Below, one piece after another: positions 41,786 to 64,000 of a DNA stretch of 64,000 nucleotides. The position numbers and the translations under genes are program-made. Position 1 is the stretch's first letter, and each line of letters starts with the position of its first letter. Origin of the DNA: Emydura subglobosa (lineage: Eukaryota; Chordata; Testudines; Chelidae); assembly GCA_007922225.1 (NCBI GenBank), contig ML679956.1:69804111-69868110 (forward strand). Direction: 5' to 3'. The notes beneath the pieces are model-generated. The model did no database searches. It had not been told where the DNA came from and saw only the letters and a program-made list of their open reading frames with translations.

Positions 41786-42569
41786 TTATATGCCAAAAAA
41801 AGCATCCAATCTAGATGCCTCTACCAGGGAATAGTGTTTTGTAAATGTGTGATTAGCTACTCTACATATTTGTGCAATGGGAACACTTCTGAAAGAGGCT
41901 GCAGAAGCTGTCTGAGCTTGATTGGGATGAGCCCTGACCTCACCTGGACAAACTAAACTAGCTAACTAGTAACAAAGCTTAATAAAGTGTGAGACCCACT
42001 TAGATACCCTTTCAGATGAAATGGCTTGGCCTCTTATTCTCTCTGCAAAGGCAACAAACAAACAATGTAGGCAAGGCCCTGGATGATTAAGATCTATCTA
42101 GGAAAAACAGGACAGCCTTATGGATATCTAAAGAGTGGACTCTCTTGGCTGCCCTGGCTGCAGTGTGGTTTAGGGAAGAACAGTGGTAGGGGAATCGTAT
42201 GGTTTAAATGGAACTCAGAAACCATCTTGGGGAGAAATTTTGGATAGGGCCTAAGTGTGACCTTTGTGAGAAACAGTGCATGGAGGGCACACCAGGAGTG
42301 CTTGCAGATCCCCAAAGGACTGAAGTGATAGCCATTAAGAAGGCTGCCTTCATAGTATGATGGTGCAATAAACTTAATGCCATGGGCTCAGAGAAAAGAC
42401 CCATCCATTCAAACAGAACCACATGGAGATCCCAGGAGTGAGGGAGTTCCTGCATCAATGGAAATATATGTGTTAGGCCTTTGAAGAATCTAGCTACTAC
42501 TTGATGTGAAAATGCAGTGTGATCCTGTATAGTGGGGTGGTGTGCTGATATAGTTGCCAGATGCACCAT
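41786..42569 (-). pseudogene. Tyrosine recombinase remnant of DIRS element A
   Basis: N-terminal part (42,204-42,569) reads MVHLATISAHH, then PHSWDLHVVLFEW, FSEPMALSLLHHHTMKAAFL and AITSV, the DIRS recombinase layout. After a frameshift the C-terminal part reads RAHPNQAQTASAASFR, then VPIAQICRVANHTFTKHYSL and a stop at 41,786. The nucleophile-type Tyr (KHYSL) is kept, while the usual H-x-x-R box appears as HPNQ. Not functional as it stands. Confidence 0.75.
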
Positions 42570-44783
42570 TATCCGTATCTTTTTAATGACATTAAGTAAT
42601 CCAGAATATTAGGAATCTTCTAGTCTGTTGGAGAAATATTGTGTTGCTCTGCCCAAAAAGAGCCTCTTCTACTTTCCTGCTTCCTTTCTGCTTTTTATGA
42701 GGATGCTTCAAGTGTCTCTAGAACAAGTTCTCTGCACAGATGTCAATCAGCCAGCATCCAGGCTGTGAGATGTAGAGATACTGGGTTTGGATGTAAGATG
42801 CTACCATTGTCCAAGAAGACCAGGTATAGACTCAGTGACAATGCAATGGGATAATAAATTGAAAGTCTCATGAAATCCAGGTCTCGGAATTGCCTGGACC
42901 AACCTAGTGCTATCAGGATTGTCATAGCAGACTCTTGTTTGAACTTCTTTAAGACCCTCGGTATGAGAGGAATCAGTGGATATATATATATTAGACCTGG
43001 GGTTCAAGGAATGACAAATTCATCTAAAATAGTTCCTAGACTCAGGCCTCCCCTTTAGCAGAAGGTAGGACACTTTTTGTTTATTTCTGTGGCAAACAGG
43101 TCCATGGATGGGTGACCTTACCTGTGAAAAGCTCTCCAAATGACGAGTCCATTTTTGCCCATTTCTGGACATCTGCAAATTTCCTGGTCTGGTGATCTGC
43201 TAGAGTTTTCTGTAGTCCTGGTAGGTGAATGGCTGTAAGGGTGATCTGGTGGCAGGTGCATCAATTCCACAGTTGAATTCCTTCCCAACATAGTGATCAT
43301 GTTCTTCCACATGGAATTTTGCTGTGGTGTTCTCTGTCAAATGAATCGTTCTGAGTACTGAGACATTAATGTGAAAATGACTCTCCTCTTGGGGACATAA
43401 ACCCTGAGAATGATGTTGATTTAGACATGCTCCCCAACTAAGGCTGAAAGCATTGGTCTCTATTATCCTTGAAGGCAGAATAAAAGGAGTACTCTTGCAT
43501 ATCTGAATGGGATTCTTCACTAATCTAGTGATTTTAGGACACGTCTAGGAATATGGACTGGCATATTGATATGATGTTTGCTCAGAAGGTAATAGATTTC
43601 AGCCACTCTTGCATACAACGAAGGTGAAAGTTGGCATATAGAGCTATGAATGTGCATGAGGCCATGTCACGCAATAATTTCAGATACATTCTTACAATGA
43701 TCTGAGGTTGCTTTTGTAACGGACTTCTGAGATCTTCCATGGCTTCAAATCTGGCCTAATGTAGGTATACTCTCACTCTTGTGGAGTGTAGAAGTGCTGC
43801 CTTAAACTATTTTCTGGGTGGGTACTATGGATGACTTCTGTTCATTGATCTTGAGTCCCAAAATGGCAAAGAGCTGTAGGATATGCTGAACATAGTATGT
43901 TATCTGTTGAGGTGAACAATCAACTATCAAGTGTAAACTTGTATTCTTTGCCACCTTAAATATGCTGCTTCTATTGCAAGCCATTTTTTGAAAATCTTGG
44001 GCGTTGTTGATAACCTGAAGATCTCGAATTAGAAATATGAAGTCCTTACTATAAATCTTCAGTATTTCCTGTGTCTTAGGTGAAATGAAATATGAAAATA
44101 TATGCCCTGGTGTTTGAGAGCTGCAAACAGGTACTGAGGATCTAGGGATGGGGTTAGTGAGGGAAGGGTTACCATTCTGACAAATGAAGATCCAGAATTG
44201 GGTGCTACCCTCATTTTTTCTTGGAGATTAAAAATAATGCGAATAAAAACCTTTCCTCCTGTACTGAAAAGGTGCACCTTTTATTGCTCTCAGAGACACT
44301 GTCCTGTTGTGTTAGTCTCTTGTGAGAGGGGTCATTGAAAAGGGGACAGAGAGGATAGATGAGGAGTAGGAGGAGCTTGAAACTGTATTGAATATCCAAC
44401 CTGGATGTCTTCCAGGACCTAGCTTATATTATTATATAATCCTAGGTTATATTGGTCCAGGCATCTTGAAAATAACAAACAGTCCCCAAATGGGGTAGGT
44501 CAGGGGCAAAGATCCTTTGGGTGTGATTCTATGTAGCTCTTGACTTACTAAACCATCAAACTGGTAGGAACCAGTCTCACGTCTTATGCATGATCTTTGT
44601 TTCTTTGTAGGAGTTTCTGATGGCCTATGGTCAGGAGGATACAATGGGGAAGAAGTATACCTAGGATAGGACTGTTTAAATTGTTTCCTTCTGGGTTGTG
44701 TAGTATATACATCCAAAGATCTAAGAGTTGCTTGGGAGACCTTTAAAGACTGAAATGCATCATCTGTCTTGCAGCTGAAAAGG

Positions 44784-45233
44784 TCACAACTCTCCAAAGA
44801 GAAATTCTTTATTGCAGTCTATTCTTCTTTGAGGATCCCTGAAGATCATAACCATGATGCCCATTTCATCATCATTGCTGTTGCCATTGTCCTTCCTGTA
44901 GTGTGATGCACCAGTTGCAGCCTGTAAATAGGTCCGAGCTCTTAACTGACTCTTTGCAATTAAGGATCTTAATTTTTCCCTTGAATCCTGTGATAATTCA
45001 TCTGCGAAGTCTGATACCTTATGCCAACTGATATAATCATACGTGGCAAGGAGTACCTGGTAAACGGCAATACTAACAGCAGAAGTGTAGCTCTTCCTTC
45101 CAGATTGATCCAGGCATTTGGGCTCTTTTTCTTCAGGTTTCGCCTTAGAGCTTTGCTTTTTCATCCTCTCTTGGGCAGCATTTACAACAAGAGATCCAGG
45201 TATGGGATGAGAGTGAAAATACTCAGATCCCAA
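44784..45233 (-). pseudogene. Gag-like frame of DIRS element A
   Basis: 149-codon open frame with HPIPGSLVVNAAQER, KCLDQSGRKSYTSA, ATYDYISWHKVSDFADEL and ARTYLQAA, which match the conserved core of DIRS Gag proteins in reptiles as I remember them. It is the longest DIRS frame in the window. The frame ends before a full-length protein, and no start context was judged. Confidence 0.7.
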
Positions 45234-45656
45234 AAATGGAACCTGGTATCTTCTGTCTATCTTTTAACATGTTGGAGGAATAGATGCAGGTGTCTGCCAT
45301 AGAAGCTGTGCAGGGTCTAAGAGTCCCTCATTTACTGGCATAGCCAGACTGTCTGACATAAAGGTGTGCAAGGTGTCTAACAATATATAGGATTTTTCCT
45401 GCACTCCCTCAACTAGAATTTCTATGCCATCTAATGAAACAGGTCTTGAAAGGATTTGTAGTTGGCAGGGTGTGGTTGAACATTTGAGACCACAATTTGT
45501 TGTCTGAGGATGATAAGATGGCAGTAACAGAAAGTTCAGCCGACCAATGGATTTCTTTCTCAGAGACTTGAAATTGTTAAGGATCAGCAACTGCCACTTG
45601 GAATGGCCAAAAGATTCCAATCTCAAGTGCATGGGGTATATGCACGCCAAGAGGGC

Positions 45657-45693
45657 TGTGTGTGTGTGTGTATGTGCGTGCGTGCGTGCGGGG
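45657..45693. repeat. TG/CGTG microsatellite
   Basis: Uninterrupted GT repeats pass into tgcgtgcgtgcgtgcg, a simple repeat inside the 5' part of DIRS element A. Confidence 0.9.
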
Positions 45694-46689
45694 ACAAGCA
45701 ATTAAAGAAGAAAGGAGAGGTACTCCAACGGAGACAGCCAGAACTTCTAGTCAGTTACTGAGAAGAAGTACGGTCTTCAGAAAAGCAAATTCAAGTGCTG
45801 GAAAGTTGTAGGAGTGACAGGGTGAGGCTAAATCTCTTAATCTACAATCAAGATGAAAAAATATCCGTGTGGGACCCTTTTAAATGATGCTCCCTGTTTT
45901 TTATCTTAGAACTCAGAGTATGTCTTCTATATATAGACACACATCTTTACTCTCTTCTACTTGCCCTCTATCTTCTGGCCTTCCCTGTAAACATAGCTCT
46001 GCTTTTGTCTCCTTCTCCCACTCTTAGCTTCAAGTCACCCCCTATGTCACAGCAGACATCTTTTTAACATCTTCCTTGTCCCATATGCCAAGTGTGCTCC
46101 TTCTCCTCCTTCAAATCCATCTAATACCCACCTCATTTAGGGAACCTTAATGGGGAGGAAGGATGGTCTTGAAATGTTATGTAGGGAGAAGCTGCAAATT
46201 AGTCTGATGTGCATTCTCCTGAGAGGGCCAAGTGGAAGATGATGCTCAGGTTACCAGCCTGAGTGACTGGGCAAGGGTGTTGTTGTCAGCACTGACAGAG
46301 AAGTGAAGGGAAGACAAAGCATTGTAACCTGAATGTCACAAGGAAGTCAAGTAAGAAAGAAATATATATTAATAACTAGAGTGCTCAGTACACACTTCAA
46401 TCATGTATCAGAGAGCTGTGTGCAAAAGTGCTTAATTTTTCAGATTTGATCCTTAGGCTTAAATTAACACTGAACAGAATATATTTTCTACACTTTATCT
46501 ATATTAATTGAATTTGAAAAAGTTAAATTTGTTCAGAACAGAAAATATGTGGGCTTTCAACATTGAAAGGATGTCTTGCCAATTAATTACTATGAGAGGT
46601 CACTACCAGTTAATGTGGAGAGGTCTTTGCAATATGCTTTATATGTGTATTTCTCCTTGAGAGTATCACACAGGAAACTGTCTGTGTAG

Positions 46690-47056
46690 AAGAAGAAGGT
46701 ACTCACTCCAAAAACACACTTCAAAGAGAAACTGCTGAATTAGAAACGATCTGCAAACTTGACACATTCAAACTGGGTTTAAACAGAGACTTGGAATGGC
46801 TATCTCACTACCAAAGGTAAATTACTTTGCTCACCCATTCTCACCTCCTACTCAATGGTCGTCATTAGGTCTTAAGTACTGGACTCCACCTCCCCCATTG
46901 TTCTCAATGCACCTGGATACCTATAAGATACCTCTGTGTTACCTATTTTCTGTATTACTGCATCTGAAGAAGAGAGCTAAGTCTCTCAGAAGCTCATGTC
47001 TGCAAATATTAAATTTGTTAGTCTTTAAAGGGCCACAGAACTCTCGTCTTTGTGTA
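46690..47056 (+). mobile_element. Penelope-like element 3' fragment
   Basis: One frame reads RETAELETICKLDTFKLGLN then RDLEWLSHYQR, followed by a stop and the tail catctgaagaagagagc, aaatttgttagtctttaaag and ggccacagaactctcg. This is the classic 3' end of an abundant turtle repeat that I assign to the Penelope-like class. It abuts the left end of DIRS element B. Confidence 0.65.
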
Positions 47057-47059
47057 GTA

Positions 47060-47106
47060 ACTGTGGTTCTTCAAGATGTGTCCCCCTATGGATGCTCCAT
47101 TTCCGG
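47060..47106 (+). repeat. DIRS B left terminal inverted repeat
   Basis: Reads aactgtggttcttcaagatg then tgtccccctatggatgctcc; the inverted partner is at 53,527-53,573 with a few differences. Confidence 0.85.
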
Positions 47107-47322
47107 TACGCATACTCTTTTCCAGCTCTTGATTTGAGATTTTCCATTAGCAGTGTCCATTTGGCCTCTGTATGCATCCAATACATCCTCATGCTGTGCA
47201 CTGTGGCTATATAAGGTGGCATGGGCAAACCGCCCTCAATTCCTTCTTTATCTGAATGTCCCACAGAGAATAGCCTAATGCAAAACACAAGGAGGACGGG
47301 TAGTGGTACACCCATAGGGGGA

Positions 47323-48400
47323 TCATTTCACAGAACCAGTTACTACATAGCGCAAGTAACCACTTTTTCTTTTCTGAATAGCAGCCCTATGGGTGCTCCA
47401 TTTCAGGTGACTCCTGAGTAGTATCCCCAAGGGAGAAGAAAGCTTTGGAATTGAGTCCAGAACTGAAGACAGGACTGTGTTACCAAGTGTCGCACCTGAA
47501 TAGGAGGCATGGATCAAAGCATAGTGTTTAGGAAATGTATGTACTGAAGCCCTAATGTATCTTAGATACTGTAATATTTTTGTGTCATGCCGTAGAAATT
47601 GCTTGTGATCTGGTCGCATGTGCTATCACCCTTTGAGGAGGGTTGAGCACCAACTGCATCATAACAAGTGACAATACACCCAGAAATCCACCTCCACTGT
47701 CTTTGGGCAGAAATTGTGGACTCCTTGGATCTGTCTGCAATGGACATGAACTGTCGAGGTGACTTTCAGAATTGCTTGGTCCTATATAGATAGAAGGCCA
47801 ATGGCCATCTGACATCTAATGTATGAAAAGAGATCTCTGTTGAGACTATGTGCTTTTTGAAAAAACACTGGTAGGTGAATGAACTGGTTAAGAAGAAAGT
47901 CCAGCTGTAACTTTGGTAAGAATTTAGGATGTGGGCGGGCAATAAACAGATCTTGTCTTTGAAGAACACAGTTAAGGGGGGACTCTGCTATCCAGGCCCT
48001 AATTTCTCTGACTCTATGGACCGATGTGATAGCTACTAAAAAGGCTGATTTCATAGATAAGTGAAGCAAAGAATAGGTGTTGTCGTTGGTTTGAATGGCA
48101 GTTTTGTGAGATATCTAAGTACTAGGTTGAGCTTCCAAATCAGAGTGGAGTCCCTAACTTGGGGGTAGAGTACTCTAGGTTCCTCAAATTCTTAATAAAC
48201 CTTGAAGATATAGGGTGAGCAGATAAAAAAATCCTTCTACTGGAGGATGAAAAGCTGATATTGCAGCCAATTAATCTGAATTGAGCTAACTGATAACCCT
48301 GGTTTCTTTAGGTCCAACAGGTAATCCAGGACAACTGAGAGCAGTGAGGATTCAGAGATGAGTTGGTGGTGTTGACACAAATGGTTGAATCTCTTCCACT
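47323..48400 (-). pseudogene. Tyrosine recombinase remnant of DIRS element B
   Basis: The segment at 47,782-48,069 reads HLSMKSAFLVAITSVHRVRE and, further on, FIARPHPKFLPKLQLDFLLN, the conserved DIRS recombinase core. The segment at 47,323-47,619 carries ASVHTFPKHYALIHASY with the candidate nucleophile Tyr. Frames are offset by indels and separated by stops. Confidence 0.75.
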
Positions 48401-48899
48401 TCTGCAGGTAAGTAATTCAGGTTGACTCCTTTCTACTGTTCAGTAACATTTGTAGTTCCAAAGAGCAGGTAGATTCTAACCCCGCAAGCCATCGTGGAAC
48501 CATACACTGAGGTGGAGGATCCCTAGTTTGGGGTGAAGTAAATGACCTGCATCTTGGAAGATGAGATGAAGAATGACTGGAAGTTTGGTCACTGGGTGGA
48601 TGCACTGGTGAAGCGGGTAAGGATAACAAGCTGTCTCAGCCTGATTGGTACTAGAAGGCTAAGATTAGCTTTGTCCTGTCTGGTCTTATTCATCACTCTC
48701 AGTATTAGCAGTGTTGGAGGAAATGCATAGAGTAGGACCTTCATCCAAGACAGGAGAAAGGCATCTTGAAGAGAATGATGGCTTAGACCTCCTCTTGAAC
48801 AAAACAGAAAACACTTCTTGTTCCTGGAGGTAGCAAAGAGGTCCACCTCTGGAAGTCCCCAATTTAGGAATATGCCATGGAGAATTTGAGAGTCCAGTT

Positions 48900-50345
48900 C
48901 CTATTTGTAATCCTGGGAGAAATGCCTGCTGAGAATATCCGCTGTGATGTTCTGAACATCAGGGAGCTAGATGGCTGAAGTGTTGATCTGAGGGGCTATA
49001 CACCTGTTCCACAACTTTATTGATTCAGTGCACAGTTTGAGGGATCTTGTTTTTCCTTGTTTATTCATACAGAATACACAGGCCACATTGTCCATCATAA
49101 TCCTGATTGATTTGCCCCTGTTGAGGGGTAGGAAATGAAAACAAGCATTCCTGACAGCCTTGACTTCCAATAGTTTGATGTGGAAATTATTTTCCTGATG
49201 TGACTAACTGCCTTGAACTATGAGGGTACTGAGATGCAACCCAGCAGGGATGTATCCATTATCATGGTTATTGTTCAAGCTGGGCAAATGAAAGGAATGC
49301 CTGCACCAATGGCCATTTCATTTTTGCATCAATCTAAGGAGTTCTTTACATGAAGGGGAACTGCAACTTTCTTCTCCAAATTCTCTGGTTGCTGAATAGA
49401 TTGATCTGAGCCAGCCTTGGAAGCAATGGAGGTTGATTGGTCATGAAGATGCAAGCTGCAATATGACCCAGGAGCTGCAGATGGTTTCTTACTGAGGTTC
49501 AAGACTCCCTTGAATGGTTCTGACTGGATTTGATAAAGTTATTAAAATCTGTCTGTGGGAAAATAGGCCCTGGCTGTCATAAATCCATGTCCGTATGAAA
49601 TGTATTGTCTTTGCATAGGTTAATGTGGATTTATTTACACTGAGCCGAAGAACCAATTCTTGGAAAAGGGTGGAAAAAGCTGTCTGAGTGGATGACAATA
49701 CTGCTTCATCAGTCTGACACTTGAGCAGCCAGTTGTTGAGGTATGGAACGACTAAAATTTCCTCCCAAAGAAGGTAAGCCGAGAGTACTGCTAGGACCTT
49801 TGAGCACACTCTTGGAGCTGAGAAGAGGTGGAAGTAATGTATTCATTATTCAAAATGTTTCTGGCAAATTATAAGGCTTAGGAGTTTTCTGTGAGATGGG
49901 TGCATTGCTATATGAAAATTAGCCTGTTGTAGATTGAGGTCCAAAACCCAATCTCTTGGCTCTAGTCAAGGGATTATAGCTGCCAGAGTCACCAGCCTGA
50001 ACTTTTGAGACTTTCAAATTTGTTTAGTGGTCTTAGATCCTAGATTGGTCTCCACCCTCTGTCCCTCTTTGGCACAAGAAAATACCTTAAATAGAACCCC
50101 TTTCCTTTGTGAAGAGCTGGGACTGGTTCTTTTGCTCCTAAATGAAGGAGAGAGTCTATTTTTTGTCTCAGTAAACGCTTGTGAGAGGGATCCCTAAAGA
50201 GGGATGGGAAGATGGGTGGAAAGGAAGGAGGGATATAAATTGGATGGTGTAGTCTGATGTTATGACCTCTATGACCCACTTGTCTGTAGTGACTCACCTC
50301 CCAGCATATTGGAAATAGGAAAGGCGTCTCCAAAAGGGAGAAGGA
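48900..50345 (-). pseudogene. Reverse transcriptase-RNase H remnant of DIRS element B
   Basis: RT start at 50,040-50,333: DPSHKRLLRQKIDSLLHLGA, then GKGFYLRYFLVPKRDRGWRP. Further on, at 49,489-49,809, VVPYLNNWLLKCQTDEA occupies the place of the catalytic YLDDW motif, with both Asp replaced by Asn. RNase H at 48,967-49,170: MEVKAVRNACFHFLPLNRGK, then MMDNVACVFCMNKQGKTRS, with the conserved Asp in MDN. Inactive by these changes and by frameshifts. Confidence 0.8.
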
Positions 50346-50599
50346 GGGTAAAAGGTTGCAGCTGCTGAACTAGAGGTATGAGAGGATTCGAACCCTTGAC
50401 TGACCCATCAAAACTGTTGTTTCGATGATGACTGGATACTTGCAGAAGAAGAATGAGAAGCCCCTCTTTCTCTGGAACTTATGTCTCTTCATGGAGAGTT
50501 TGGTGGATCTGTGAAACCCAGACAGCTGAGCAGGGTGAGATCTCTGGCCAGTTTGTGACCTATTCAATTTTCTTTTATTTGTAGGAATTACATATACCT

Positions 50600-52210
50600 G
50601 GAGATCTTAACATGATCCTGCAGTCTTTTAGTGTGTGAAGAGACTCATCCGTGGTTTCTGAGAACAACTTTCAACCATCAGAGGGGAGATTCAGATCTCA
50701 CGGGAATCCCAGGAGTTAGAGCCATGACACCCTGTGCATAACTACTGCCATAAAAATGGACATGGCAGTGGTGTCTGCAGCATCCAAGGACACTTGAAGA
50801 GATATCCTGGGTAATAACTGACCCCTTCATGATGATGGCCTGATGTTCCCTCTGTTTCTGTGGAAGATGATCAATAAAAGCCATATATTTATTATAGCTT
50901 CTGAAACTATATTTAGCTATGACTGCTTGATAGTTTGAAATCCAAAATTGCAGGTTGCAGATGAATAGGACTTCTGTCCAAAGAGGTTTAAGCACTTTTG
51001 ATCTTTGTCATACTGGGCAGACTTGGAGAAGTGTTTCTTACCTTGTTCCAGTGGTTCCCAACCTTTTTGGCTCAAGGGCCACAGATATCATTTTTACAAA
51101 CCTGAAGGGCCACCAATCTCTGCCAGCAAGACCCCTCCCCTCAAACTGCAGCCAGAAGGAAGGAATTCAGCAAAGAGGCTGCCTCCTCGCTGATCTCCCG
51201 TCTTCTTGGCTGCAGCAGGAAAACCGCACACATCCTGTAGCCGTGTGCGCTCCACCTAAGTCCTTAGGCAGTGGCTCCCTTCTGTAGCCAGGGGGACAGG
51301 AGATCAGTGCTCCCCTCCCTCTGGCTCCAGCAGGGACCCCAGTGCCTCGGGACTGAGGAAGAGCGCTTTGCCGTGCTCCCTGCTATAGCCAAGGGTAGGG
51401 GAGCGCTGATCTCCCATCCCCTTGGCTGCAGCAAGGAGTCTGTACCCGTCTTTTAGCCCCACTGAAACACGCTCCACCTCAGTCTTTAGGCAGTGGCTCC
51501 CTTCTGCAGTCAGCAGGAGGGGAGCCGCGGACCACTTTGAATGCCCCCACGGGCCTATTTTGGCCCCTGGGCCACAGGTTGGGAACCATTGCCCTGTTCA
51601 TTCACTGCATCCACCAGAGAATTACATGGGGCATGGGAGAATAACATTTTGGACTCCTTAGAGGGGACATAATATTTTTTTACCTGCCCATTTTCAAGTT
51701 GGTGAAATGGTAGTGGGTATTCTCCAAATAATCTTTGCTGGGTCCAAGAGTGCCTAATTCATGGGTAACACAACCCTGGTTGGTGTTGCTGATTGTAACG
51801 TCAAATAATTTGTGTTGCGAATCCTTGACCTCTTTCAGTCGTATTTGAAGAGTGTTAGCTAACTGCTTTATAACATCTTGAAATTGCTGGAAATCATTGG
51901 CCATGGTGGTGGAGGCATCACTGCCTCATCTGGAGACAATAAAAAGAGGAATTTGAGGGGTGACTTTTTTATCTGCCCTAGCTTTCTGTTCCTGAAATGT
52001 CTCCTTGTGTTGGCGTCTCAGTTGAGGAGAAGACTGAATATCTCTAGCCTCCCGATGTGTTGGAGCTGATGGTCTGGCAAATTGCTGTTGGTATGCAGCC
52101 CAGGAATCCCAGTATGGCCATTGGAGGAGCCCATTTGGGAGCAGGGGTGGCTTCCAGGGTTGGTCCCACCACACTTTCGTGTCATGCATGAGGGTCTTCT
52201 CTATGGGTGT
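50600..52210 (-). pseudogene. Gag remnant of DIRS element B, split by a hAT insertion
   Basis: 50,678-50,995 codes NYQAVIAKYSFRSYNKYMAF then IDHLPQKQREHQAII, resembling reptile DIRS Gag. 51,680-51,904 codes DFQQFQDVIKQLANTLQIRL on the other side of the 543-bp hAT MITE (51,049-51,591), so the Gag frame was one unit before that insertion. Confidence 0.65.
51049..51591. mobile_element. hAT-type MITE nested in DIRS element B
   Basis: The left terminus cagtggttcccaacc and the right terminus, read in reverse, caatggttcccaacc form classical hAT inverted repeats. Flanks ccttgttc and ccctgttc are an 8-bp target duplication with one difference. 543 bp, GC-rich, internal near-repeats of phrases such as gatctccc..tccccttggctgcagcagg. 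No transposase. Confidence 0.92.
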
Positions 52211-53526
52211 CAAAGAATCAGATCCTGTATGGGTGGATAGGAGAATGCTGCACTGAGATGGAAGAGATTACATGGAGATCTCCCTCATCCTCTTCAATAG
52301 CCTCCAACTGGGGGGCACCAACAGAAAACGTTGGAGAATCTGGCAATATTGGAGAGTGACGGTAGTCTGGAAATTGGGGTCTCGGTACTGAGAAGCATAT
52401 GGTACCCATGAAAAGTGGAGATTCTGGTTCATCTGCTACTGATGATACTTATATATTTAGATACTTTTGAGTATCTAAACTCGTGTGTTACTGAGTGAAG
52501 AATTGATCCTGACGTGGTAGTGTGCTTGGCAATAGAAGCAGATAGTGTTCTAGATTTAGAGCATACTGAAGTAGGTGCCAATGATGTCTGATGCTTTGGT
52601 TTGCACAGTGCCTAGGGTCCTGACTGGGGAGATACAAACAATGGAGCTCTGCTCAATGGTACCAGTCTGGAGGAGTGCTTATCCTTGCCCTTTTTGTCCC
52701 ATGTAGATGATACCAGGACTTTGTCAGAGCCATGTTTCTCTTTAGACCTCTGAGAATCTTTCACTTGTATGATACCAAGCTGAGCCATCAGGCTTCTGAT
52801 AGCATGCCCAGAGTGGGGGACTGAGGTCTTTTGGGAGCAGGCTTCTTAGGGAGGAAGTCATAGCTCCTCTTCTTGGCAGCCTTCACTGAGTCCTCAAGAG
52901 TCTTCCCTTTCTTAGGGAAGATTTGTGCTGAGGTTGAAGGGGCACTGGTTCTGGCCAGAGACAGATGTCCAGGAGGTGGGAATCTCTCCTGACCTGACTC
53001 TGAAGTGGGTCAAAGGGACTGCGCCATCAGCAGCAGCCTCAACTTGATCTCCTGATACTTCCTTGTCCTGGATTTTAGGGCAAGCAGATGTTACACTTCT
53101 GGGAGACGTATGACTCTCCCAGGCAGCAGTCACACTTAGAGTGTATGTCACTAACTAGAATAGCCCCCTGACAAGAGAGGAAAAGTTTGAATCCTGGAAA
53201 GCTGGGCATGCCTCGCCAGACAGTAAGGCTCCCTGAAGGAAGGGAGAAGAACAAAGTTAATCCTCACGCTACTTATCTACAAACTAACAACTATCTAATA
53301 CTAAATAATACTAAACTATAAACAAGAAGTTAGCTGATGCACACTCAAAGCAGACACGGTAGGGCTCTATCTCAGGCTGAGGTGACTGAGGAAGAACTGA
53401 GGGTGGTTTTCAGTACAGTCCTTTATAGCTTTGGTGTGCGGCATGAGGATATATAGGAAGCACATGCGGCCCAAACAGACACCACTAGTGGAAAATATCC
53501 GATCAGGAGCTCAAGAGATATATATG

Positions 53527-53873: not shown

Positions 53874-54638
53874 ATTTAGCTGTCTTTTAAGTAAATTTAG
53901 CAGCTGGAAGTGAGGAGGAGGAGCCAGCATCATGTGACCAGACAGATCTCTACAATATGTCCTCTGCAGACCACTGTGGTCATTGGATGACAACTTTGAA
54001 TCTTTACTAGGTGGTGAAATGATTTGAGTAAATGACTTTGAGCTGAATTCCCCCCCTCACACTACTTTTACTCCCATATTAACTGCATTGACTTCAGCTG
54101 ATTTACTGCCAATTTACAGGAGTGTAAATGAGAGAGAATCAGGCCTTTTTCACCTAAGGTCTAACTGAAACACTGGTGACCCCATCACAGGTTCAGTAAA
54201 GCCAATAAACTGTATCCTGGAACACATTCCTTAACAGAGTGATATTTTCATTTTAGGATCTCTGACTCAGTTTTGCTCTGGATTATAACAGGAAGAAGAA
54301 GAAAAAAATGGTTTCAAATCCACCCTGGGGTTTTGACCATCTCCAAGAAGACTCTATAACAGTGGTGAACATCCCTGGAAAGTCCTAATCTCAGCCTAAA
54401 ACCAGAAACTACAATAAATATTTATAGGAAGGATACATCAGCAAAAGTATAAATCATTTACACCTGTTAAAATGAATATGTTTGGCCGTTTAAGTAAAAA
54501 GGAAAAATGTAGTTGTTAACTTGGAGTCAGATTCTAGGAGGTGCTGGTTTTAGTGGGAGCTGACAACACTCAGCATCTCACATGATTGGAACACTGGATG
54601 TCTACCTAACAAGAACAAGTGTATCTGATAGAACTTAC

Positions 54639-54920
54639 CACCTGTAGAAGAGCCAGGTAACCAGCACCAACGTTATCAAAGTTGACTTTAACTTTTGTCC
54701 AGTAAAGAGACCCTGTCATGTTTTTGGACATGCATTCGCTCATGTTATTAACATCTTTAGGTTCTAATGGCGTATCTCCTAGTGTCTTGTTAATGCATTT
54801 TCCAAACTTTCCTGCAAACAGGTTCACTCCCATGATGCTAAAAATGAGCCAGAAAATGAGGCAGACGAGCAGAACGTTCATGATGGAAGGGATGGCACCT
54901 ATCAGGGCATTCACAACCAC
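54639..54920 (-). CDS. SCN5A: SCN5A exon 23: domain III S4-S5 linker, S5 and outer pore
   Basis: 282-nt exon, 94 codons, phase 0. The acceptor is cacttatttaag before GTGGTTGTG; the donor is CAGGTG followed by gtaagt. It codes [20 protein letters not shown] and the S5 helix, then [10 protein letters not shown], an extracellular turret and [18 protein letters not shown] into the pore helix. The turret has two N-glycosylation sequons (NKT and NMT); turret residues vary among Nav channels while the Cys residues in KCIN and SECM are kept. The protein is continuous across the junction with exon 24 (LLQV-ATFKGW). Confidence 0.97.
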
Positions 54921-55144
54921 CTTAAATAAGTGAAATGAAAGAAAAACATACAATTACTGCAGGCCATCACATGAACACATCCTTAAACAGCTATTTTGTA
55001 CACTAAACTAACTGGGCCAGATCCTCAGTTGATGTAAACTGGATTAAAACTGTAGAGCTGGTCCACTATTTTGTAAAATTTAAGAACACTTAAGATTCTT
55101 CTTTTTTGTACCTTAAAAAAAATAATCTATCAGTATCTCAAGAG

Positions 55145-55770
55145 CAGGCCCACCGACAAGGGGGTGGGGGGAGGGGAATGGGTGGATGGCAAAGGGGACA
55201 ATTGCCCAGGGTCCTGGTAATTTTTAGGGGGTCTGGTGATTTAAAAAGGGGCCTGGGCCATGGGACAGCGGGGTGAAGGCTTCTTCTCGGACTGGCCAGC
55301 TTCACATCCCACCTCTTCGGCCTGTGGCCCGCACAGTCCACCCCTACTCCATCCCAGACCCCACCATTGCCCCACTTGCCGCTGCATCCACCCTCACCAG
55401 TCCACCTCCCTGCTTGGTCCCCATCCTCTCTTCCACACCCCCCTTTCCCCGCTTGTCCTCCCCACAGCTGTGTCCCTCCTCCCCACTCAGCCCCCCCTGC
55501 CATCACTCACCGCGTGCATCCCTCCTCTCCTTCTCCACTCGCCTCCCCGCCATTGCTCGTCACGTCCTTCCCCACTTCCCCCACTTAGCCTCTCCAGCTG
55601 TCACTCGCCACCGGGGGGAAGAGGAGTGTGGAAGAGAGGAGGGGGACTGAGCGATGTGGGGGGGAGGGATGCAGTGGTGAGTGGACCAAGGGGGGGAGGG
55701 GACTGGGCCTGGGATAGAAGGGGTGGGACTGTTCTGCTGTGGGGGCCCGGAATTCCTGTTGGCGGGCCTG
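55145..55770. mobile_element. GC-rich hAT-type MITE with perfect 8-bp target duplication
   Basis: Terminal repeats caggcccaccgacaagg (left) and, read in reverse from the right, caggcccgccaacagg. The 8-bp flank ctcaagag is present unchanged at 55,137-55,144 and 55,771-55,778. The 626-bp body is strikingly C/G-rich with long C-T runs, giving chance open frames up to 236 codons with no protein signature. Located in intron 22. Confidence 0.93.
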
Positions 55771-57986
55771 CTCAAGAGCATTTGCTAATTGGCAACCAAT
55801 TGTTGTTTATAACAGGGCGAGATTCCAGTGCCTGTCAGGATTCTCTCTGCTTTATATTGGACCCTACGTTTAGGGATGTGTTAAGCACATCATTTGAAGT
55901 CTGTGGGACACAACAAATATTTTCACAATGTTTAAGGGACCAGGAGAGAGGAAGAGAGGCTTCCTTCTAAGCAGCAAAGTATCTAAACCTCTTTCTGAAC
56001 TCCGGTCTCCTACACAATACCTGACATTTTAACTCTAACTATGAAGGGCATTGATTAGCTGAGTAGTAATTGATCCAGTGGTGTCTCATCTGTCAAAAAT
56101 ACCATTGATTGGAAACCACTATTACAGTGATGAAGCAGGGTCACTGAAATGCTTGGACCAGCGCAGCTATGGAGGATCTACTGTTATAATTTAATCCCTT
56201 CCATTACTACGCCTATTTTTACAGTGTTTAGCATTAGAACAGCCAACACGCCTTGATTTAATATACATCTGACTCATATTTTCCCACTATATACTGTACC
56301 AAAATCTTCATAATTCTGTTTTCTGCAGAGTTCCATCGCCTCCAGGCAGTATTAACGTGCAAACCCCATGAATACAACCACACATAAAAATATTGTATAG
56401 GAAAGAACCCAGTCCTGAATACGGTCCTGAACCAATGCAAATGGAATATACAATATGCACTTGATAGACCTCAATCACAAAATTTCAATAATATCAACAT
56501 GCACGCCAAAAGGTTAATATAACAACCACATAATAGATGTTATATAGCATTCTAAACCACCATACAAACTGTAAAGCCTTTGATGCATGCTAAGCATAAC
56601 ATGAAAGACATTTTCCCAAGAAAAACCATTGTCACAAAATGCATTTTTTTCACACTATATTAATGGCTTGTACAATTTTTACATATCCACAGCTACTATA
56701 GATGCTGCCACTATTTTGCAGAAACCCATCCAAAGTAAACTGGCTGCCATTCTACAGATTCCAGACTTTAGTATATGAATTTGTCTCCTTGTTTGTTTCA
56801 TGCTTTCAAGATTAGAATCTGATATACAGATACTAAGCCTTTTCCCTTCTCAATTTACATTTCTGAAACCGAGACAAAGTGATATCGATCCACAAAAATG
56901 AAATTTTATTCAATTGTGAATCTGGTTATGGAAAATGTCAGTTCTTGTATTCTATCATATTGTGCAATTTTCTGACAAGCCTATAATATAAAATTCATTT
57001 CACCACTACTTTTGTGTTTCTGGGAAGGAAAAAGCGTACAGTAAAATGATTTTAAACATTTAGAGCAGGCAGTTTATTCTGGTACATTGAAGAAAATATA
57101 CAATTACATAACTCTTTCGAGGCCTGGAACTATACTTTGCACATTTCTGAAAGGAGCAAATGTTTAGCAAGACCGTGTACCCATTTATGCCATATGCAGA
57201 CTTTTTACAACTGATGTCCCTTTTGCTAATTTTATCTTTCATTTTTAGATTTAGTGCATTCTTAACTTTATAGTTTTAACCCAACCTTTATTTTGTAAGC
57301 CAAAAGGCAAAATAATTCATGAAACAAATGATCATTTGAATACTGCCCAAACTGATATCTTAATAATTTTCATTTGCTCTTTAGTGTCATGGTTTTGTTC
57401 AATGTCCATCCATGCTGGCCCAACAACACTACAGCTACCCTACATGTGACATAGAGGAAAACATTATGACTGTTAGAGATAGAGAGATTACAGTGCAAAT
57501 GATCATGCTTAGGAACAAAACATCATCATTCACGTTAGACAATACAAATAATGGCCATGCATGCATCCTCCGGTTTTTTTGTTGCTGAATTATGTTCAGT
57601 GGCTTGTAAATAATAAAATATGACACAAGACTTGAAGCAAATCATGTAACACCTCTTTGAATGAATTATTAATGAAGGGCCTAATTCCCTTCTTGTTTAT
57701 ACTGATTTTACATAAAGAAACTATTAATAATTTATGTTAGAATTGAGATCCAAACTTCGCTAAAGTAAGGACCAAATTTTTGTTATGTCTAGAAATAATA
57801 ATATGTACAGTACAGTCATCTATGAGAGATAGTTTCATAGCACCGCATTCCTACTAATATCTTATAGGCCGTGCCTGAAACCTCCTTCCCCATAACTTCT
57901 GTTGGGGGTAGCCTTTTGTCACCCAATCCCCTACTTGGCATCTGGAGGATATTTAAATCTTCAACATTTCTTTTCAGATTCATAAT

Positions 57987-61070: not shown

Positions 61071-61472
61071 AGCCTATGCCCTGTTTTTGGTGTGAATACT
61101 CTTTAAAATACAATATCATATGGGTTCACTAAGAAGAGTGCAGATGAACCAAAAAAAGTTCAAATTTGGATGCCCCAAACTGCTCCACCAATGTACTTTA
61201 TCTCTAGGGTTAGCTCAATTTTTAGGCCCATTCAGTCCTCTCTGGCTGTCTTACTATGGTACGATTATAATATAGAAACTGGACCACTAGGACTTCAGCT
61301 GAAACCACCAACTCATTGCACACAAACTCTATAGACTTTTGATCACTAGTGATTTATATTGAATTTGAACTTGTGACCTAGAGGCAAAAGAAGCCATATC
61401 CCAAATTTATTTTATTAACATCTTATCATTTTCCTTGACATATTTTAGGGATTTGGGTTCTTCAGATAGGAC

Positions 61473-61736
61473 AAAAACAACGAGAGTTCTGTAGCACTTT
61501 AAAGACTAAGAAATTTAATTTCAACAGGCATAAGCTTTCGTGAGCTTCAGCTCACTTCCTCAGATGCAGTTGGTAGAAATGATACAGCAAATAGGTAACA
61601 TATATAGTAGGCAACATTTACATATCCTCTCACGAAAGCTTATGCCTGCTGAAATTAAATTTCTTAGTCTTTAAAGTGCTACAGAACTCTCGTTGTTTTT
61701 GCTGTATACAGACTAACACAGCTACCCCTCTGGAAC
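61473..61736. mobile_element. Penelope-like tail-to-tail foldback with 11-bp target duplication
   Basis: Arms at 61,473-61,544 and 61,629-61,700 are near-perfect inverted complements of 72 nt separated by an 84-nt loop. Both carry the Penelope-like tail (aaagcttatgcct, aatttcttagtcttta, aagtgctacagaactctcgt), also seen at 46,980-47,045. The flank tcagataggac occurs at 61,462-61,472 and 61,737-61,747, a perfect 11-bp duplication. Confidence 0.82.
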
Positions 61737-62567
61737 TCAGATAGGACAGATGTCATTTTACATATATATCCATCAGAAATCTTGGAAATGGTGCTTACAT
61801 TGGTATCTTATGTGCTCACAAATGTTACAGGTTGTGCCATAAAGCGATTTGTTTTGTTTTGCCATGTGATTTACAGTATTAGTGATAACCTTGACTAGTA
61901 CAGAATGAAGTTATCATCTTTTGCTAGTCATGCATGACAAAAATAGTTTAAAAAACAAAGCCCAAATCCAGATCCTTAAACATACTTGCTATGCTAATCA
62001 AGCACAAATAAATATGCATGATAGCTGTGGACACAGCCATACATTCAAGAAAATGCAAATTGGAGAGGACAGACATGCAAGATAGAACAATGAACACAAA
62101 TCACATGGTTACAATGCTAATCCTGGCATTCTATCTTAAAATTCAAATTCTTCAGAGGAAATTTTTTGTGAATTTGCTCATTTGTTTTTCATATATAGTA
62201 TGCCTCTAATGTTCATTTTCTTTATTAGTGAAAAAGTCCTCAACAACTTTGTGATTCATTCTAATTTTAATAAAATTTGGAGGCAGGAGCAAACATGTAG
62301 CAAAATTATTTTCCCCAATGTGATGCATAATTAAAGAGATAATTATTAGCCAGATGTTACCTCATCCAAAAAGCTGTTTTTAAAACATAATATGACAAAT
62401 AATGCAGCGGGATTAGCTTATCATGAAATCAATCAAAGAGTAAAAGCTGCAGCTATACTACTGCAATCAAGACAATGAAGGTGGGTTTTTTTTTTTAATA
62501 TGGCATTATCATTCATTTCCTTTGCAGTCATAATGAAAACAAAACCAAAGAAATATGGCCCTTTTAC

Positions 62568-62572
62568 ATGCT
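62568..62572 (-). promoter_or_regulatory. GCATG (RBFOX-type) element downstream of exon 22
   Basis: On the minus strand the sequence reads aagcatgtaa, about 47 nt into intron 22. RBFOX proteins bind (U)GCAUG, and such sites downstream of an exon usually favour its inclusion; RBFOX has been reported to promote the adult exon 18A of SCN8A. No GCATG was noticed in the roughly 100 nt downstream of the duplicate exon. A five-base match is weak evidence on its own. Confidence 0.3.
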
Positions 62573-62618: not shown

Positions 62619-62741
62619 CCTCATCCCTTCAAATCGTGACAATGCTCTTAATGGTCTCAAAGCTCGGAGGGTCCTAAGGGATTTAATAGGACCCATTTCG
62701 GAGTATCCAAGTGAGTTAGCTATGAGGCTTATTAAAGAGAC
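62619..62741 (-). CDS. SCN5A: SCN5A exon 22 (canonical): domain III S3-S4 voltage sensor
   Basis: 123-nt exon, 41 codons, phase 0 at both ends. The acceptor is tgtctccattcag before GTCTCTTTA, with a good pyrimidine tract; the donor is ATGAGG followed by gtaaga. It codes [17 protein letters not shown] (end of S3 and S3-S4 loop), then the S4 helix with regularly spaced arginines ([18 protein letters not shown]) and GMR. This closely matches the mammalian exon, so I take it as the constitutive version. Exon 23 continues directly with VVVNALIG. A similar exon lies 798 bp upstream. Confidence 0.97.
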
Positions 62742-63539
62742 CTGAATGGAGACATAAAGCAAAAGTCCAAACTATTAGCACAATCCTATCATTTTACTTC
62801 TCTTCTGCCTTTCCTTTCTGAAAAGAAAAAACCTGTTAGTGGAATGATGATGAAATAACCTAAATGGAGGACATAGAATTAGACCAATACAGAAAGAAAA
62901 GAAGGTTTAACATCCAAATATATACACAATTCTTTTCATGATTCCTTCAGAACATAAAGTCTTTGTTTCCAATTTAATGTAAACTCTTAGAAATAGAGTA
63001 TTAAAGTTGTCTATTTCCCTCTAGTGAAGCACGCAGAGTGCTTAGTAATGTCCATAGGAGCTATGTGGTTAGAAAAAGGGGAGATTACAATCACAAAAAT
63101 ATTATTCTGTGGCACTAACATTTTATTTATTTTATACCTGACAGAGGTGTGTGTGCATCTATCATTGTTAAAAGTATTATTAAATCATGTAAATGCTATC
63201 ATTTGGTGCTCTCCAATGAATCATTTTAAGATTCTTCAATATCCAATGATTTATTAAAATGGTAGAAGATTTTAAGATTTCATTGTAAAACGAATGGTCA
63301 ATCCTAAATACTGATTAAAAAAAATCTCTTCCTAAATTGCCACTGGATCTGAGTCTATTATAGACTCTTTAAAAGAATTATGTATATAATTTGTTTGGCT
63401 CTTTCCATTTTTCACTGTTATCTGGATCCCCACACAGCACCTAAAAGAGAAGACTCCATGTTATTTTCCTGTAAGGAAAGTTAGAAGGTGCTCAGCATTA
63501 AAGTGCACATACTTCATAGACACTAAAAGGTACCCTTAC

Positions 63540-63662
63540 CCTTATGCTCTCAAATCTGGATAGGGCTCGGAGGGGCCTCAATGCCCTGAGTGTTCTGAGA
63601 TATTTCATAGCGCCCAGCTGGTCATAATCAAGAGTTGTTGCTATCAGGCAAACAACTGAAAT
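63540..63662 (-). CDS. SCN5A: Duplicate of exon 22 ('22N-like'), alternative domain III S3-S4 exon
   Basis: A second exon of exactly 123 nt, phase 0, upstream of canonical exon 22. The acceptor is tctgcacag before ATTTCAG (its pyrimidine tract is weaker than that of exon 22); the donor is AGG followed by gtaagg. The 41 codons have no stop: [17 protein letters not shown], then [19 protein letters not shown] and SIR. All S4 arginines are kept, the S3 end and S3-S4 loop differ, and the exit is ESIR instead of EGMR. In the stretch [17 protein letters not shown] the proteins are identical, but 14 of 17 codons differ silently from exon 22. Known precedent: SCN8A 18N/18A at the same position, where 18N carries in-frame stops. 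Expression cannot be judged here. Confidence 0.85.
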
Positions 63663-64000
63663 CTGTGCAGATTGAATGGAGTTTGAGATTACAGGTCAGA
63701 TGAACAAACATGGAGTAAATGGATTTTACATGCCACAGTTGCTATTCATAGCCTGAATTCTTACTGACCAGGGAGTGAAAAAGGAAGCTATTCCCATACA
63801 CTGCAACCATCTTTCTGACTTTCAAGAGTAAATTACATGGATTAATTTCTGTTCCATCTTTATAATCTTTTCTATTCCCAGGAATTGAGATTTTACAGGC
63901 AACCTGTATTAATATGTGCATTGTTGACTTTGACAAAACCTTCATTCCTGTGTATCCACAGGATGTATGCCCCCTCTTACTCTAATATCTGAGTGCTTTA
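63663..64000 (-). other. SCN5A: SCN5A intron upstream of the duplicate exon (partial)
   Basis: No coding similarity to exon 21 (domain III S1-S3) is visible up to the window edge, so that exon lies further right. Confidence 0.7.

Follow-up and report, generated by a model that had tools for sequence, protein, structure and literature searches.

A probable coding alternative to exon 22 of SCN5A for the domain III voltage sensor in the turtle Emydura subglobosa

In the sodium channel gene SCN8A, exon 18N precedes exon 18A; exons 6A and 6N of SCN5A code for the S3-S4 region of domain I, and exon 20N of SCN1A is placed after the S3-S4 exon and not before it, as judged by arithmetic on isoform lengths. 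The SCN8A pair codes for S3-S4 of domain III and is described as mutually exclusive (PMC3809569), and its member 18N carries an in-frame stop (PMC3809569, PMC13011093), a precedent to which the initial annotation of the DNA studied here had appealed and which these papers bear out. RBFOX is described as activating exon 18A of SCN8A (PMC3809569). As far as the accessible parts of the reviews go, domain III exon choice in vertebrates is presented as an on/off device in which 18N leads to no working channel (PMC3809569, PMC13011093, PMC4309913). The Drosophila para gene has the alternatives K and L for domain III S3-S4, with 16/41 residues different, and the choice between them changes persistent current (PMC4309913). 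The adult and neonatal exons 6A and 6N of SCN5A are described as mutually exclusive (PMC13011093), and the SCN1A poison exon 20N, 64 bp long, frame-shifting and located between exons 20 and 21, is described as conserved and high in fetal mouse brain (PMC7790302). In the available text of a 2021 study of four brain genes, a second exon pair was reported in SCN8A only (PMC8383430). Here we describe an exon of turtle SCN5A, exon N, which, judged from its sequence, is very probably a functional coding alternative to exon 22 that replaces exon 22 in some transcripts.

The window, by which we mean the whole stretch of 64,000 nucleotides of Emydura subglobosa DNA that was analysed, carries the 3' part of SCN5A on its minus strand; exon 21 and the start of its intron fall past the window edge. 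The last 414 residues scored 778 bits against human Nav1.5 and 635 bits against the next paralogue, Nav1.4, and we therefore identify the gene as SCN5A. Its last exon is 97% identical to the Emydura macquarii SCN5A-like isoform X2 (P0019) over 425 aligned residues. The canonical exon 22 (A), whose number was taken over from the initial annotation, was located by reading and alignment at positions 62619-62741 of the minus strand; it has 123 nt in phase 0 and runs GTC...AGG between a ...ccattcag acceptor and a gtaaga donor. Exon N (22N), delimited by translation and splice dinucleotides at 63540-63662 of the minus strand, is the upstream copy and exon 22 the downstream one, the two being separated by a GT-AG intron of 798 nt (62742-63539, minus strand). 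Translation of the minus strand showed that exon N likewise has 123 nt in phase 0 and is stop-free; it runs ATT...AGG between a ...ctgcacag acceptor and a gtaagg donor and codes for the S3 end, the S3-S4 loop and S4 of domain III. The initial annotation had claimed a stop-free 123-nt, phase-0 exon 798 bp upstream of exon 22 with AG acceptor and GTAAGG donor, and all of this was confirmed at exactly these coordinates. The next exon, which codes for the domain III S4-S5 linker onward and to which N or A would be joined, was placed approximately at 54633-54920 (minus strand) by tblastn with P0019. In that protein the residues of exon N are identical to those of the window and the flanks of the exon are domain III sequence; a homologous N peptide aligned with human Nav1.5 (chain 8vyj_A) over residues 1281-1321. 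Comparison with the Emydura protein revealed no further duplicated SCN5A exon pairs in the window.

Some other features of the window were recorded. Within the large intron, a run of open frames at 42204-52267 (minus strand) looked by eye like a decayed retroelement, and a Pfam search gave no match for six ORFs at 43.8-50.4 kb. At 55138-55970, also within an intron, overlapping long GC-rich open frames occur on both strands, one strand being proline-/serine-rich; they are probably low-complexity sequence. The intron after exon 22 contains a near-perfect inverted repeat (61472-61544 and 61629-61701) with 73-nt arms that are 99% complementary and lie 84 nt apart; it has the look of two repeat copies in opposite orientation.

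The peptides of N and exon 22 have 26/41 residues in common and differ at the other 15/41. The initial annotation had listed a swap of the S3 end, the loop and the S4 exit with every S4 arginine retained; the S4 basic residues are indeed kept, but the differing positions are more numerous than it had implied. In human numbering, the turtle changes from exon 22 to N include S1285C, G1292D, S1294D, E1295Q, P1298A, I1299M, S1301Y, G1319S and M1320I. At the DNA level 76/123 bases are shared, and the 47 differences are distributed 15/4/28 over the first, second and third codon positions. Estimates of dN were 0.21-0.30 by three methods, and those of dS were 2.4 and 3.8 by two methods, dS being saturated and not computable in a third; dS is thus far above dN, with synonymous change near saturation. 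We simulated neutral divergence with 100,000 exons, each starting from exon 22 and receiving 47 random substitutions. None of the 100,000 reached a residue identity of 26/41 (maximum 25) or accumulated at least 28 third-position changes, while 24% stayed stop-free, so that an open frame alone is weak evidence. N and exon 22 match within the exon only (66% over 119 nt, E 3e-12); in the flanks, compared over 338 nt on each side of the exons, the best match had an E of only 2.3. The two are adjacent homologous exons of the same length and phase, both open and constrained, as expected of tandem duplicated coding exons. By these measures exon N is intact and constrained at the protein level. A relic exon that is spliced no longer in this species could still show an open frame, given the proportion of simulated exons that remained stop-free, but we consider it highly improbable: donor, acceptor and frame are intact, dS far exceeds dN against exon 22, and the N peptide has 100% identity with that of the Emydura isoform and, among the matches listed, 95-98% with those of other turtles.

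Evidence from other species consists of proteins, namely a comparison set of 140 retrieved database entries, all of which are predictions. Using the open frame around N (65 residues) as query, 2 matches were obtained among 15 candidates: a gecko model that joins the N end to exon 22, and a short protein whose frame continues past the donor into sequence resembling the window's intron. A second search, in which long proteins were scored against exon N only, had 56 candidates, 45 of them listed, and a third, with the elephant-shark N exon, was represented by the best 120 of 5488 matches. Both of these searches scored the exon only, which moves two-copy proteins up the ranking and over-represents them among the matches listed, and the database clusters at 90% identity hide isoforms. 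Among the matches listed, N was found in nine turtle genera, Alligator, Crocodylus, frogs, newts and the squamates Hemicordylus, Lacerta, Crotalus, Sphaerodactylus, Tiliqua and Pogona, and also in channels of cartilaginous fish, lungfish, sturgeon and teleosts. Most tetrapod carriers have the label SCN5A or SCN5A-like and some are entered as 'hypothetical protein' or 'sodium channel protein', and the fish carriers had mixed labels (SCN1A, 2A, 4A, 5A, type V-like, hypothetical). N-like exons were present in lamprey, hagfish and amphibian SCN2A isoforms.

With a residue rule, the 140 proteins were divided into 36 with N only, 61 with A only, 30 with both in tandem and 13 others; these 13 unclassed proteins were left out, three of them (P0009, P0054, P0057) being N-A pairs missed by the pattern. 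The N-only proteins keep normal neighbours, with ...LDFLIV. before and VVVNAL... after the exon. They comprise turtles (Emydura X2, Carettochelys X2, Trachemys X6, Chelydra, Pelodiscus, and four numbered isoforms plus one UniProt entry of Chrysemys), lizards (Hemicordylus X5, Sphaerodactylus X2, Tiliqua X4), and further sharks, rays, lungfish and newts. The initial annotation had named absence of the frame from other reptiles as one half of the outcome that would speak against its reading; instead, the frame is conserved in N-only isoforms of turtles and lizards. Its reading of N as an alternative coding exon is thereby supported, but the exon is confined neither to this genome nor to reptiles. 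Since matching versions occur in predicted proteins of sharks, frogs, lizards, crocodiles and turtles, exon N looks like an old and little-noticed splice option.

Several proteins in the set showed peculiarities of their own. The N exons of teleosts (P0049-P0051, P0053, P0055-P0064; labelled SCN4A-B-like or otherwise) have drifted yet are open; those read end in RFAGIR, RFAGMR or RLAGIR, and the first S4 lysine is replaced by arginine. Four Callorhinchus models (P0030-P0033) continue past the N donor into VRPPI... and then into differing tails, which are perhaps truncated transcripts or model errors. In two bird proteins labelled 'SCN5A-like', P0045 (Pluvialis) and P0046 (Cinclus, a cluster of 39), the domain III S3-S4 exon is altered. 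In Cinclus the block counts 36 residues, the loop being shortened (VSLINLFGSTLGAMKS), and combines ends of the A type with an AMK of the N type; this gene may not be SCN5A itself, because it sits on a long branch beside SCN10A. The canonical exon of Chelonoidis abingdonii (P0009) reads LGSSEIDTMKS, unlike that of other turtles, which is either a real change or a sequence error.

Another reading is a conserved regulatory exon whose transcripts lead to non-functional or dominant-negative channels, as with SCN8A 18N, which lies at the same site, has a stop and is described as lowering the amount of functional channel. In the window, however, the in-frame stop or frameshift of an 18N-type poison exon is absent (123 nt, open) and the S4 basic residues are kept. 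The S4 basic residues, at seven positions, are also retained in 28/28 distinct N-type sequences of the chosen set, but the databases pre-select openness and the DNA of the window is the cleaner evidence. The openness of all N exons in the set reflects in part how the data were selected, because an N exon bearing a stop would hardly show in predicted proteins. Taken together, a purely regulatory role at this locus seems very unlikely.

The proteins with both exons in tandem bear on a further alternative, that N is a cassette exon included together with exon 22 in one transcript, giving an 82-residue form with a doubled S3-S4 segment. Double inclusion keeps the frame because N has 123 nt, the 798-nt intron and ordinary GT-AG sites permit it, and tandem proteins make up 30/140 of the set and come from several groups. 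Neither the length of the intron nor the frame forces one exon over the other. The 30 tandem proteins mean that exclusivity may be false, or else that these models may be artefacts, and N and exon 22 make up a putative rather than an established mutually exclusive pair. On the other hand, 36/140 proteins have one N-type exon only under the residue rule, numbered isoforms among them; a second S3-S4 should disturb the topology of the voltage sensor; and tandem proteins are favoured by searches that scored nothing but the exon. We regard double inclusion as unlikely, and replacement of exon 22 by N in some transcripts as the better account of the data.

To estimate the age of the duplication, trees were built from 42 hand-chosen proteins of the 140. 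The exon tree had 54 rows (from the 42 proteins and the window's two exons) and 41 columns, which is few for so many rows, and its N and A labels were assigned by eye. In this tree a branch (90/98, not starred) separated the 22 A-type rows from the rest, and exon N of the window grouped with the N of turtles, crocodile and lizard (8 rows, 96/92). A single clade of all 31 N rows could not be rejected (p 0.356), although this is no demonstration of such a clade. In AU tests, with groups named after inspection of the tree, one clade for N and A together was rejected for reptiles (p 3.5e-5), for sharks and rays (0.010) and for frogs (0.022), and was not rejected for teleosts (p 0.0585). That exon 22 was duplicated recently and independently in turtles or reptiles would fit the tandem position and equal length of the two exons, but the first of these rejections and the N-type exons in sharks, frogs and lungfish make it barely credible. 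From the rejection of the reptile, shark/ray and frog clades it follows that the duplication is older than reptiles, and most likely it predates jawed vertebrates. In a protein tree built without the exon (42 rows, quick method), N carriers fell in SCN4/5/10, in amphibian SCN2 and among cyclostomes; this placement of paralogues is rough because of long branches, which put one catfish SCN4A with cyclostomes and one bird SCN5A-like protein with SCN10A. For SCN2 and cyclostomes, the assignment to N depends on N-like residues that were labelled by visual inspection.

One difference between the two exons recurs across species. The 30 tandem proteins reduce to 21 distinct pairs, to which ray-finned fish contribute 11, and in these pairs the exons are told apart by position, so that the following count is not circular. 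The downstream exon had its loop acid at human Nav1.5 position 1295 in 21/21 pairs and at 1294 in 0/21, against 18/21 at 1294 and 1/21 at 1295 for the upstream exon. Three frog tandem pairs are without an acid at 1294, and crocodilian N has acids at both 1294 and 1295. In the chosen set, an acid was present at 1295 in 19/19 distinct A and at 1294 in 23/28 distinct N sequences, counts that are partly circular because the N and A labels came from residues. For human Nav1.5, a close approach of E1295 to R1739 in the IVP2-S6 loop is described; the substitution E1295R caused depolarising shifts of ~4 mV in activation and 7.6 mV in inactivation, and E1295K has been associated with arrhythmia (PMC8551724). 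An AlphaFold2 model of the Pelodiscus N-only fragment from 22 aligned rows reached a mean pLDDT of 48.6 and a pTM of 0.24, and nothing was drawn from it.

On these grounds, exon N would provide Nav1.5 with a second form of the domain III sensor, unchanged in the S4 basic residues but different in the S3 end and S3-S4 loop, and splicing would pick N or exon 22, one or the other. The shift of the acid from 1295 to 1294 may retune the contact of VSD-III with the IVP2-S6 loop (E1295-R1739). Such a retuned contact could change inactivation or persistent current modestly without abolishing the channel, in a direction that is not confidently predicted. Putative branch sites, assigned by consensus, are a ctgac at 63695-63699 and a ctaat at 62774-62778 (both minus strand); their A residues stand 34 nt ahead of exon N and exon 22, respectively. 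The RBFOX core motif GCATG occurs upstream of N at 63729-63733 (minus strand), separated from it by 66 nt, and downstream of exon 22 at 62567-62571 (minus strand), at a distance of 47 nt. GCATG upstream of N and downstream of exon 22 is the arrangement in which RBFOX would favour exon 22, and RBFOX-like control may set the choice between the two, as for 18A of SCN8A. The density of the motif in the window is an ordinary 1.08 per kb, with motifs near N and exon 22 no denser, and these sites are therefore a lead only, with chance a plausible explanation.

If a coding pair has been kept since early vertebrates, domain III exon choice would be a tuning device as well as an on/off one, and a pair of that age would point to an origin for the poison exon. 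A broader reading, which we offer tentatively and find rather more doubtful than probable, joins these points. Exon N would be one half of an ancient vertebrate switch, older than the split between SCN1/2/3 and SCN4/5/10, which would retune inactivation through a one-residue displacement of the acid in the S3-S4 loop of domain III; 18N of SCN8A would be a surviving copy decayed to a poison exon; mammalian SCN5A would have lost a coding form that ectothermic hearts may still use; and fly K and L may even share descent with the pair. The analysis names one testable change, the acid at 1295 versus 1294, at a site tied to arrhythmia variants, and N exons would supply variants of the cardiac channel's voltage sensor III that arose naturally and have been tested by evolution. 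The exon would also be relevant to work on turtle, crocodile and lizard hearts, in which Nav1.5 may be taken to exist in one form only.

The initial annotation knew of no described coding pair at this position in SCN5A. Among the papers listed by full-text searches of the open-licence literature, which mostly leaves out subscription papers, we recognised none that describes exon N, and the passages on SCN5A consulted in a 2026 review name exon 6A/6N and exon 17-18 events and not N (PMC13011093). The statement holds as far as description goes, but N is already present in predicted isoforms: SCN5A-like entries of NCBI and UniProt (for example Emydura X2 and Trachemys X6) contain it as computed models with no exon description. 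Because of these database isoforms exon N is not new as sequence, and it may be new as a described feature. Among characterised systems, SCN8A 18N/18A belongs to the same channel family and affects the same segment, but 18N has a stop whereas N of SCN5A is fully open. Drosophila K/L and cockroach G1/G2/G3 are alternatives at the same site in an insect channel, K and L differing at 16/41 residues compared with 15/41 for N and exon 22. The 6A/6N pair lies in the same gene as N and exon 22, but in domain I and not III. SCN1A 20N is, like N, a conserved alternative exon and lies in a paralogue, but its 64 bp shift the frame, in contrast to the in-frame 123 nt of exon N.
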